DNA of 43,449 nucleotides from contig DUMW01000032.1 of NCBI GenBank assembly GCA_012839765.1, positions 1 through 43,449 of the forward strand. The letters run 5' to 3'. The position numbers and the translations under genes were made by a program. Positions 9,379 to 41,668 of this stretch are shown one piece after another (within the stretch, counting starts at the first letter, position 1; each line of letters opens with the position of its first letter). Source of the DNA: Bacillota bacterium. GTDB taxonomy: Bacteria; Bacillota; Limnochordia; DUMW01. The notes under the pieces were generated by a model. It did no database searches. It had not been told where the DNA came from and was given only the letters and a program-made list of their open reading frames with translations.

Positions 9379-9412
9379 GGTGCCCTGAGGTTGGGGCACC
9401 TCTTTGTTTTTT
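9379..9412 (+). terminator. Rho-independent terminator after rpsU
   Basis: GGTGCCC (9379-9385) pairs with GGGCACC (9394-9400) around an eight-base loop, followed by a T-rich tract to 9412. It should end the transcript that starts at the hrcA promoter. Confidence 0.9.
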
Positions 9413-9432
9413 GCAGAGAGAGGGGCGGTGCC

Positions 9433-10761
9433 GTGGTGAAACAACACAGCAAGATCATCCTGCCGGTGCTTCTGGTGCTACTGTGGTTTACGGGCATTGC
9501 ATCCGCCGAGGTGGTCCATGTGGTGCCGGTGAAGGGCGAGGTGCAGATGGGGATGGCCCGGTTTGTGGAAAGGGCCATCAAGAACGCGGAAGCCAAGGGC
9601 GCGAGTTTGATCATATTGGAAATCGACAGTGTCGGCGGTCGGGTCGATGCGGCCTTAGCCATTAAGGATGCCATTGCCCATAGTCAGGTGCCGGTTTGCG
9701 CCTATGTGCGAAGCAGGGCCCTTTCGGCTGCAGCGTTGATCGCCCTTGCCACGGAACAGATCTGCATGCATCCGGGAAGTACCATTGGGGCCGCAGAGCC
9801 CAGTCCCAGTGATGAGAAAACCGTCAGCGCCCTGCGGGAGGAGTTTGTGGCTGTGGCAACCTTAAGGGGCCGGGATCCGTCGATTGCCGCGGCCATGGTG
9901 GATCGCAGAATTGCCATCGATGGTTTAGTCCGTTCCGGCGAGATTCTGACCCTAGATGCGGCCAAGGCTGTGGAACACGGGATCGCCGATTTTCAAACCA
10001 CAAACCGCGGGCAGGTTTTTGCGGCCCTGGGGGTGACCAATCCAACGGTGGTGGAGGTGGCCCCGAGACTAGCCGAGCGCCTGGCGGGGTTTGTTACTTC
10101 ACCTGTGATCAGCTCTATCCTTTTAACCGTGGGCTTTTTGGGTTTGATCGTGGAGATTGTAACCCCTGGATTTGGCGTGGCCGGTGTCCTTGGTCTTACG
10201 GCTTTGGGCTTGTTTTTCGGCGGCCATATGTTTGCGGGGCTAGCAGGTTTTGAAGTGATTATTCTCTTCATTGCCGGTATCGTTCTGTTGATCCTGGAAG
10301 CGTTCGTGATCCCTGGCTTTGGTGTGTCGGGGGTTCTTGGCTTGCTCTCCGTCTTTTTCAGTATCTTTCTGGCCTTTGCGGACCCGGAAGTGGCCCTTTA
10401 TTCCATCATTGGATCCCTGGTTGCCAGTGTGGTTCTGTTCCTGCTAGTGTTTCGGCAATTGAAGCGGGCTGGGAAATTGCGGCCCCTGATTCTAAGCACC
10501 GCCGCGGTTAGGGAGGAGGGATATATCACCAGTGAGCCTCGCCGAGATTTGTTGGGAAAAGTGGGGATTACCACTTCTGTGTTGCGTCCGGCTGGTACCA
10601 TGGAGATCGATGGGGAACGGCTAGACGTGGTTTCCGGTGGGGAGTTCATTGAGAAAGGGGTCCCCGTGGAGGTGTTCGAGGTTTTCGCCAACCGCATCGT
10701 GGTCCGGCGGGTGGCCAACTACCCAAAGCAAGAAGAGGTTGAACCGCAGAAGAAGGAGTAA
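9433..10761 (+). CDS. NfeD-type membrane serine protease (YqeZ-like)
   Basis: This is a long-form NfeD protein: a ClpP-like serine protease domain joined to membrane helices and a C-terminal NfeD OB domain. After a signal peptide (IILPVLLVLLWFTGIASA) come the protease segments IDSVGGRVDAAL, then RALSAAALIALA with the likely nucleophile Ser, and DEKTVSAL with the likely catalytic Lys, as in the Ser-Lys dyad of the archaeal homologue. Four to five hydrophobic helices follow (about residues 200-350), then the soluble NfeD domain. Start GTG 9433 has GAGGGG upstream; GTG 9436 is equally possible. Members usually pair with stomatin/flotillin proteins, and floA follows here, so a joint role in membrane microdomain maintenance is likely. 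Confidence 0.92.
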   Translation: MVKQHSKIILPVLLVLLWFTGIASAEVVHVVPVKGEVQMGMARFVERAIKNAEAKGASLIILEIDSVGGRVDAALAIKDAIAHSQVPVCAYVRSRALSAAALIALATEQICMHPGSTIGAAEPSPSDEKTVSALREEFVAVATLRGRDPSIAAAMVDRRIAIDGLVRSGEILTLDAAKAVEHGIADFQTTNRGQVFAALGVTNPTVVEVAPRLAERLAGFVTSPVISSILLTVGFLGLIVEIVTPGFGVAGVLGLTALGLFFGGHMFAGLAGFEVIILFIAGIVLLILEAFVIPGFGVSGVLGLLSVFFSIFLAFADPEVALYSIIGSLVASVVLFLLVFRQLKRAGKLRPLILSTAAVREEGYITSEPRRDLLGKVGITTSVLRPAGTMEIDGERLDVVSGGEFIEKGVPVEVFEVFANRIVVRRVANYPKQEEVEPQKKE

Positions 10762-10864
10762 GAATAAGGCTGTCCCGTCCCTTTGCTTGAGATGCTTTTT
10801 TCTTGGAATCGGGAGGAGTAGGTCGGGTTTTATCAAGGAACAAGGAGGTTGCCCCGTAGGCCAG

Positions 10865-11279
10865 ATGGGATTTCTTGATCTGGTCGTATTGATTGTACCG
10901 TTGGGTTTGCCTATTTCCATTTTCCCTTTGTTAGTTTTGTGGGAGACTGCTCGGCGTGCCGGGGTGAAGCTCAAGTTGTCCAGGCTTGTCGCGACGCACA
11001 TGCAGCGGGTTCCACCGCGGAAGATCCTGTTGCCGTTGATTATGGCGGCAAAGGCGGGGGTATCAGTGACTTAAATCGAACTGGAAGCCTCATCCTAATG
11101 GGGGAATGGGGAAGTGGTGGTTCGCGGGCTGATTGCTGCCCAGCATCGGTGTTTTCCTTTCCTTTATGGAGGCGTGTGCCATATACCTTGCGGGCCGTTC
11201 GGTCCTGGAAGAAGTACGGCAAAGGGCCGGGGTACAGGAAAAGAGTAATCTTGTTGCTGATATTCTTGGGCAAGGATAA
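10865..11279 (+). pseudogene. Decayed tandem copy of floA (5' part)
   Basis: This stretch is a broken paralogue of the intact floA downstream. From ATG 10865 it reads a hydrophobic N-terminus, then RVPPRKILLPLIMAAKAGVSVT, matching [22 protein letters not shown] of FloA. A TAA at 11072 interrupts it. Reading on in frame gives IELEASS, a second stop (TAA 11096), then VVVRGLIAAQHR, parallel to [10 protein letters not shown]. After a frameshift near 11150 the next frame gives LSFMEACAIYLAGRSVLEEVR, parallel to [21 protein letters not shown]. The frame ends at 11279 and the remaining two thirds of the gene are missing. This shows duplication followed by decay. The 100 bases upstream (10762-10864) hold no gene. 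Confidence 0.85.
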
Positions 11280-11328
11280 AATGGGGGTTAGGTAAGAGAA
11301 ATAAAGAGGTTGGCAAGGAGGTTCATCG

Positions 11329-12354
11329 ATGGGTTCCGAAGCGTATGTTTTCCTTATACCAGTTGGTTTGATTGTCGTGTTGTTGTTGGTGATTCTCAGC
11401 TTTGTGCCCTTGGGGCTATGGATTTCAGCCCTGGCGGCAGGGGTCAGAGTCAGCATTTTTACCCTCGTGGGTATGCGTCTGCGCCGGGTTCCGCCGGGGA
11501 AGATTATCATGCCTCTGGTTAAGGCCGTGAAGGCAGGTTTACCTGTGACCATTGATAAACTAGAGGCCCATTACCTGGCCGGAGGAAATGTGGACCAGGT
11601 GATTGATGCCCTCATCGCCGCCCACAGGGCCGATATTCCCCTGACCTTTGAGCGGGCTGCGGCCATTGACCTGGCGGGTCGACAGGTGCTAGAAGCGGTG
11701 AAGATGAGTGTAAACCCCAAGGTGATCGAAACCCCCGTGATTTCCGCGGTGGCTAAGGACGGGATTGAACTGAAGTGCAAGGCCAGGGTGACTGTACGGG
11801 CGAACATCGATCGTTTGGTGGGAGGAGCGGGAGAACCGACGATCATCGCCCGGGTGGGCGAAGGGATCGTGACCACCGTAGGTTCGTCAGCGGATCACAA
11901 AGCTGTTTTGGAAAATCCGGATCTGATCTCCAAAACGGTCCTGGAGAAGGGCCTTGATGCGGGTACCGCCTTCGAAATTCTGTCCATTGATATAGCCGAC
12001 GTGGATGTGGGTAGGAACATTGGTGCCCAGTTGCAGATTGACCAGGCGGAAGCGGACAAAAACATTGCCCAAGCCAAGGCTGCAGAGCGCAGATTTGCGG
12101 CTCAGGCTTTGGAACAGGAAATGTTGGCCCGGGTTCAGGAAATGAGGGCGCGGGTAGTGGAAGCCGAAGCTCAAGTGCCCTTGGCTATCTCTGAAGCTCT
12201 GAAATCTGGAAACCTGGGAGTTTTGGACTATTACGCGATGCGCAATATCGTGGCCGACACCCAAATGCGGGAAAGCTTGGCCCGAAGCGAGGAGCCGGAG
12301 TTTGGGGATGAACCCAAGCAGCAAAAGAAGACTCCGCCTAAGGAGCAGAAATAG
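11329..12354 (+). CDS. floA: Flotillin-like protein FloA
   Basis: FloA is a membrane-anchored scaffold that forms foci in functional membrane microdomains. The 341-residue product has an N-terminal hydrophobic segment (about 8-45), the conserved [19 protein letters not shown], the PHB/SPFH-like core, and an Ala/Glu/Gln-rich coiled-coil region (about 230-290, [20 protein letters not shown]). The C-terminal tail is charged and rich in lysine and glutamine. Start ATG 11329 has a perfect AGGAGG. It follows the NfeD-type protease and a decayed copy of itself, matching the yqeZ-floA order of Bacillus. Confidence 0.96.
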
Positions 12355-41447: not shown

Positions 41448-41668
41448 GGCCATTGGACGACAATCTTATCCCTGCTGTGTGCGTGGTTAAGCTGGTGGTG
41501 TTATTGACCCAACACCATGACAAAGGGAGCTTAGCTCTCTCTGTGGGAAGCAGGCCCGGCGCGAATCCGGGAAGCGGAAAGCAGAGAGGCGGGCACCCAC
41601 CTGCCGAGCGCGGGTTCAATGCAAACCAGTCGTAACGGCACAGCGGGGTCTTTTTGTATCCAATACCA
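41448..41668 (+). ncRNA. ssrS: Probable 6S RNA (SsrS)
   Basis: 6S RNA mimics an open promoter and binds the housekeeping RNA polymerase. The call rests on structure and place. ATTGGA (41452-41457) pairs with TCCAAT (41659-41664), CCCTGCTGTG (41470-41479) with CACAGCGGGG (41639-41648), and GCTGGT (41491-41496) with ACCAGT (41625-41630), forming a long interrupted closing stem. Inside are a small hairpin GGTGTT/AACACC (41497-41516), a long arm with CCCGG/CCGGG, and GGGTTCAA before AACGGCAC, as in known 6S RNAs. It sits between aspS and rarA, a known 6S location in Firmicutes. Ends are approximate. A short T-run (41651-41655) follows the stem. A cobalamin riboswitch was considered and rejected. 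Confidence 0.75.

Follow-up and report, generated by a model that had tools for sequence, protein, structure and literature searches.

Remains of a second FloA-type gene between nfeD and an intact floA in a Limnochordia genome

What occupies the space between nfeD and floA in a Bacillota contig (DUMW01000032.1), and what kind of gene was it before it decayed? In the window, by which we mean the whole stretch of 43,449 nucleotides analysed, nfeD is located at 9391-10761 on the forward strand (ORF boundaries with a predicted start) and represents the first gene of an nfeD-floA pair, while the intact floA of 341 aa follows at 11329-12354 on the same strand, matching Pfam FloA with 533.3 bits and NCBIfam NF010186 with 545 bits (cut-off 393). 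The gap of 567 bases between the two genes is filled by a floA remnant. At other loci the two genes were between −31 and 337 bases apart, the median being 19 (105 of 109 loci, 4 of 109 being unmeasurable, and some of the compared loci offering no more than a few hundred bases in front of floA). The nfeD gene is of the NfeD1b type, with a ClpP-like domain, a membrane domain and a C-terminal partner-binding domain, and its Pfam scores were 158.3 bits for NfeD1b_N, 89.8 for NfeD_membrane, 45.4 for NfeD and 31.4 for CLP_protease. According to PMC2636767, a floA-type gene behind an NfeD1b-type nfeD forms the operon of the SPFH5 group, with YqfA and YqeZ of B. subtilis as an example. The locus has this SPFH5-NfeD1b arrangement, as nfeD with its ClpP-like domain sits on the same strand 103 bases before the ATG of the remnant.

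The first-pass annotation of this DNA had described a decayed FloA-type copy ahead of the intact floA and behind nfeD, and the homology searches (E 5e-14, Pfam 48.9 bits) bear it out. The remnant extends over 10865-11219 on the forward strand as three collinear FloA-similar pieces, which cover residues 8-125 and are interrupted by two in-frame TAA codons and one frame slip. Upstream of it, a ribosome-binding-site-like AAGGAGG (10842-10848, forward strand, a consensus match only) is separated by 16 bases from the ATG at 10865, compared with 7 bases between the motif at 11315-11321 and the start of the intact floA. Blocks 1 and 2 (10865-11143, forward strand; tblastn, Pfam, NCBIfam and alignment) are FloA-like from residue 8 to about 97, and similarity in the frame of this ATG runs past TAA at 11072-11074 and TAA at 11096-11098 to about 11143 (LIAAQ). 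The tblastn blocks then change frame, placing the slip from block 2 to block 3 at 11144-11156 on the forward strand, where a frameshift near 11150 had been annotated before; the previously listed motifs and both TAA codons were likewise recovered by translation and position check. Block 3 (11157-11219, forward strand), in the next frame, is translated as LSFMEACAIYLAGRSVLEEVR and corresponds to FloA residues 105-125 (Pfam FloA 15.5 bits, E 0.0097), and its frame closes at TAA 11277-11279. The earlier extent of 10865-11279 therefore stands for FloA similarity at 10865-11219 and for the closing TAA, but no convincing similarity was found past 11219, and the last 57 coding bases of this third frame form a tail (11220-11279, forward strand) in which shuffle tests of DNA and protein scores were applied to a possible trace of the 3' part at 11225-11245. 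These disabling changes are established, and with TAA 11072, TAA 11096 and the slip the remnant lacks the intact reading frame of the FloA family.

How firmly the remnant belongs to this family can be judged from several searches. Compared with the intact FloA by tblastn, it showed 44% identity over residues 8-107 and 13 identical residues of 21 over residues 105-125. Genome-wide (121 contigs, 2.56 Mb), it was the second-best FloA match after the intact gene, with two TAA inside, and the third match, on contig C85, was weak (E 0.032). A single Band_7 match elsewhere in the genome (contig C9, L134) was absent from the genome's FloA matches. Against Pfam FloA (PF12127), codons 1-69 alone reached 34.2 bits and the read-through with stops set to X reached 48.9 bits, both exceeding the gathering cut-off of 34 bits. 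The NCBIfam FloA model (NF010186) gave 51.5 bits, which, as expected for a fragment, falls short of the full-length cut-off of 393. At the DNA level, 214 of 353 aligned positions (61%) were identical to the intact floA. Over 112 aligned columns, the remnant protein shared 45% of its residues with the neighbouring FloA and 38-49% with orthologues, while the 101 orthologues were 59-79% identical to the neighbouring FloA over the same columns (109 FloA stretches were taken from the loci and 101 different ones aligned, four of them with a stop, set to X). The remnant resembles FloA (YqfA; PF12127, NF010186; named SPFH5 in PMC2636767) in its similarity over residues 8-125 and in its place behind an NfeD1b-type gene, but differs in its broken frame, in the presence of the first third only, and in an identity to the intact copy below that of the orthologues. 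Homology and position are established by these data, and the stretch is an ordinary pseudogene from a family already known. Among the papers listed in a literature search for such pseudogenes, none dealt with a bacterial floA as judged by its title.

The earlier claim that only the first third of the gene remains agrees with recognisable similarity being confined to residues 8-125. As described in PMC11222466, S. aureus FloA combines a single membrane segment with a PHB domain, a coiled coil and a low-complexity tail; its PHB domain is divided into subdomain 1, which is helical, and the conserved alpha/beta subdomain 2. The same paper reports that lipid binding and microdomain placement were abolished in FloA without helices 1 and 2 of subdomain 1, that the coiled coil may drive multimer formation, and that NfeD is the partner. 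A structure model of the intact FloA of the window (27 sequences, mean pLDDT 77, pTM 0.51) has helices through residue 128, a first strand at 131 and a long helix from 231. With the modelled helices ending at 128 and the strand starting at 131, the remnant matches the anchor and PHB subdomain 1 and stops beside the domain boundary. For the beta-sheet and long-helix parts of FloA, no counterpart was found in the remnant beyond a 21-base hint at 11225-11245. Because it is without the beta-sheeted subdomain 2 and the coiled coil, the remnant should lack flotillin activity, and with these parts missing it is unlikely to be a functional flotillin in terms of expression, microdomain localisation and oligomerisation.

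We then considered whether the parent of the remnant ever diverged as a working gene, and for this purpose alignment columns were classed by their conservation among orthologues. Of 41 near-invariant FloA columns (at least 97% conserved), the remnant keeps 27 and has 14 changed, the number kept being possibly inflated by an alignment that favours conserved blocks. It agrees with the neighbour at 12 of 22 intermediate columns and at only 11 of 49 variable columns; at the latter, the 101 orthologues share a median of 20 residues with the neighbour (range 10-29). If the remnant had arisen by recent tandem duplication of the floA next to it, been dead from birth and drifted neutrally, as its adjacency, its same orientation, the AAGGAGG before both copies and a sister relation to the neighbour that is not rejected (p-AU 0.898) would allow, then loss of one third of the invariant residues should have left about 32-34 of the 49 variable columns equal to the neighbour, instead of the observed 11. 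In neutral simulations starting from the neighbour's own DNA (16 settings from 8 divergences and 2 mutation biases, 1000 runs each), not a single run in any of the settings combined at least 27 kept with at most 11 equal columns. The mismatch with decay from birth is established, and a recent neutral duplicate, which we regard as highly improbable, was rejected on these simulations. The kept invariant and changed variable columns, unmatched by neutral runs, are therefore most simply read as divergence under constraint first and decay later, in line with the earlier description of the copy as an old duplicate or a divergent second one. Moreover, a neutral phase keeping two thirds of the residues, multiplied by the 20 of an ordinary orthologue, gives about 13 variable columns, close to the observed 11, and the pre-decay copy therefore need not have been further off than FloA from a different lineage. 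Two stops are in keeping with a neutral phase during which about 0.2 changes per site accumulated (simulated mean 1.3-1.5 stops). Between remnant and neighbour, third codon positions differed at 73 of 120 and first and second positions at 88 of 240 (p 1.8e-5), and dN was 0.47 and dS 1.79 over 118 codons with dS near saturation, although this third-position excess and low dN/dS are owed in part to the intact gene's own lineage.

We consider it very probable that a second FloA stood between nfeD and floA, diverged while it was a working gene and then decayed, leaving its 5' third. By this account, a second FloA-type gene would have stood between the two genes in this lineage and would have been under protein-level constraint for part of its life, diverging about as far as the FloA of another lineage. 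It would then have become non-functional, picking up two stop codons and a frame slip, losing its other two thirds and changing neutrally at conserved sites. The anchor and helical PHB subdomain 1 that are left correspond to the portion that S. aureus FloA requires to recognise lipids (PMC11222466). Such a second copy would have been expressed and would have worked as a flotillin, its parent gene being presumably full-length, and it is plausible from the constraint test that two flotillins may have worked together here. The presence of a diverged second copy within the nfeD-floA unit, albeit in remnant form, shows that this site can hold a second FloA; the remnant itself is a minor episode in the history of the gene and has no direct bearing on function.

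Two further explanations were weighed. One is that an intact second gene was misread through an error of sequencing or assembly, a view for which the fragmentation of the assembly into 121 contigs might speak, the locus being known here from assembled sequence alone. However, two stops, a slip, the loss of two thirds of the gene and changes at 14 near-invariant residues are unlike single base errors, and we hold this explanation to be extremely improbable. The other is that translation of the 69-codon frame at 10865-11071 continues and yields a small membrane protein with a modulating effect on FloA, since the frame is open, carries AAGGAGG upstream, and has the predicted anchor and first helices inside. 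By contrast, codon positions 1 and 2 differed at 45 of 134 before the first stop and at 43 of 106 after it (p 0.28), the motif lies 16 bases from the ATG, and no other locus read carried such a second copy. A retained small peptide is thus very doubtful, and this candidate was set aside as the codon positions give it no support.

The point at which similarity ends raises another possibility, namely that the parent was a short flotillin-like protein with the anchor and PHB subdomain 1 only, which decayed in place. Recognisable similarity ends at residue 125, beside the subdomain boundary, and FloA-N genes without the rest exist in the phylum, including an intact 211-aa ORF in G428 (L123:1492-2127), whose FloA similarity extends up to about residue 117, as well as a 126-aa ORF in G464 (L127:1495-1872), which is similar to the G428 ORF over residues 5-148, carries a TAA and shows similarity past it. 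These ORFs share with the remnant the anchor and PHB subdomain 1 without the rest, but they belong to another family, neither nfeD nor floA was seen next to them on the stretches of about 3.4 kb read by eye, the G428 copy is intact with a C-terminal part of its own, and in a tree involving long branches they did not group with the remnant. Also against a short parent, the bases at 11225-11245 match floA nt 798-818 (codons 267-273) in the same codon phase with three mismatches, which gives a weak hint that the parent may have been full-length with its middle lost. This match was spotted in the hit list before testing; its DNA score was reached by 0.5% of 200 shuffles and that of a gapped version by 4 of 1000, while the protein scores of the 3' trace were reached under shuffling by 23% of 1000 for two segments and by 883 of 2000 for a single segment. 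Overall, a short parent appears unlikely. Still somewhat less likely is the extended proposal that a second flotillin in the nfeD-floA operon, possibly of short form, either mixed with FloA or competed for NfeD before it was lost; if it were true, the short FloA-N genes of the other family would be living examples of a short flotillin form. Regarding these genes themselves, the C-terminal part of the 211-aa ORF in G428 had no Pfam match over cut-off and was present in 2 of 19 genomes of the order, each of the L123 and L127 ORFs adjoins a similar small protein (by eye), and G454, of the same family as G428 and G464, has a further short match over 3-62 on a 73-aa open frame.

Returning to a second FloA that diverged under constraint before decaying, its origin would lie in duplication or acquisition. 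A tree of 64 rows and 125 columns, with about 112 residues from the remnant, did not place it: the remnant was drawn at the root on an end branch of 10 changes per column, and the five rows nearest to it were of the same class. A clade of remnant and neighbour gave the p-AU value mentioned above, and the constrained tree was 25 log units better than the free tree. The remnant is about equally similar to all FloA proteins, with the value for the neighbour (45%) falling inside the orthologue range (38-49%), and therefore nothing ties it to the neighbour. Likewise, its 11 of 49 variable columns lie inside the orthologue range of 10-29, and an acquired FloA of another lineage therefore fits as well as an old duplicate. 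The copy may have arisen by tandem duplication within this lineage, may descend from an older paralogue or may have been acquired.

Intact relatives of such a pair were sought in a class set (72 genomes including the window's own, 64 with a FloA match) and in a phylum sample (398 genomes including the window's own, 258 with a match), which overlap and consist of genomes of the same class as the window's genome or more distant from it. Neither the 71 other class genomes nor the 397 others of the phylum sample contained a tandem floA pair, so the intact two-gene arrangement that the first-pass annotation had suggested looking for was not recovered in the genomes searched. Two FloA matches were found in 2 of 63 other class genomes with a match (G060 and G062) and in 5 of 257 others of the phylum sample (G155, G257, G317, G393 and G428), where at most five candidates per genome were scored (11 in the N-terminal rerun) and weak second copies may be missed. 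With an N-terminal FloA profile, only the window's own genome and G060 gave two matches among the class genomes. The two matches lay on different contigs in G060, G155, G257, G393 and G428, those of G393 being complementary parts at contig ends; in G317 they were collinear parts of one gene, and in G062 two contigs carried parts that complement each other (residues 174-328 and 5-131). On re-examination of G060, G155, G257, G317, G393, G428 and G220, no tandem pair behind nfeD was seen, a pair split over contig ends remaining conceivable for genomes with two FloA matches. Among 112 loci searched, a second FloA match occurred only at the window's own locus (L001, L002); of 525 relatives, the contig scan retained the 80 best, among which close kin of the window may be missing. 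An intact second copy was thus seen in no genome examined, and the former pair therefore rests on one locus. Among the papers listed in literature searches, titles and beginnings of abstracts showed no report of tandem floA.

Across the class set and phylum sample, FloA is a very uniform family and usually single per genome. Among the matches listed, it was mostly 70-83% identical to the window's intact copy, with lower values of 68% (L110), 69% (L092) and 56% (G020). G060 of the class set carries two nearly full-length FloA on contigs C195 and C412, which are 78% and 80% identical to that of the window and represent real paralogues or contamination (6% listed). G257 of the phylum sample, listed as 99% complete with 1% contamination, likewise carries two nearly full-length FloA on contigs C61 and C35 (72% and 74% identical to that of the window). 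Finally, a 6S RNA gene was found at 41466-41653 of the window, with 103.8 bits against a gathering score of 46.4.
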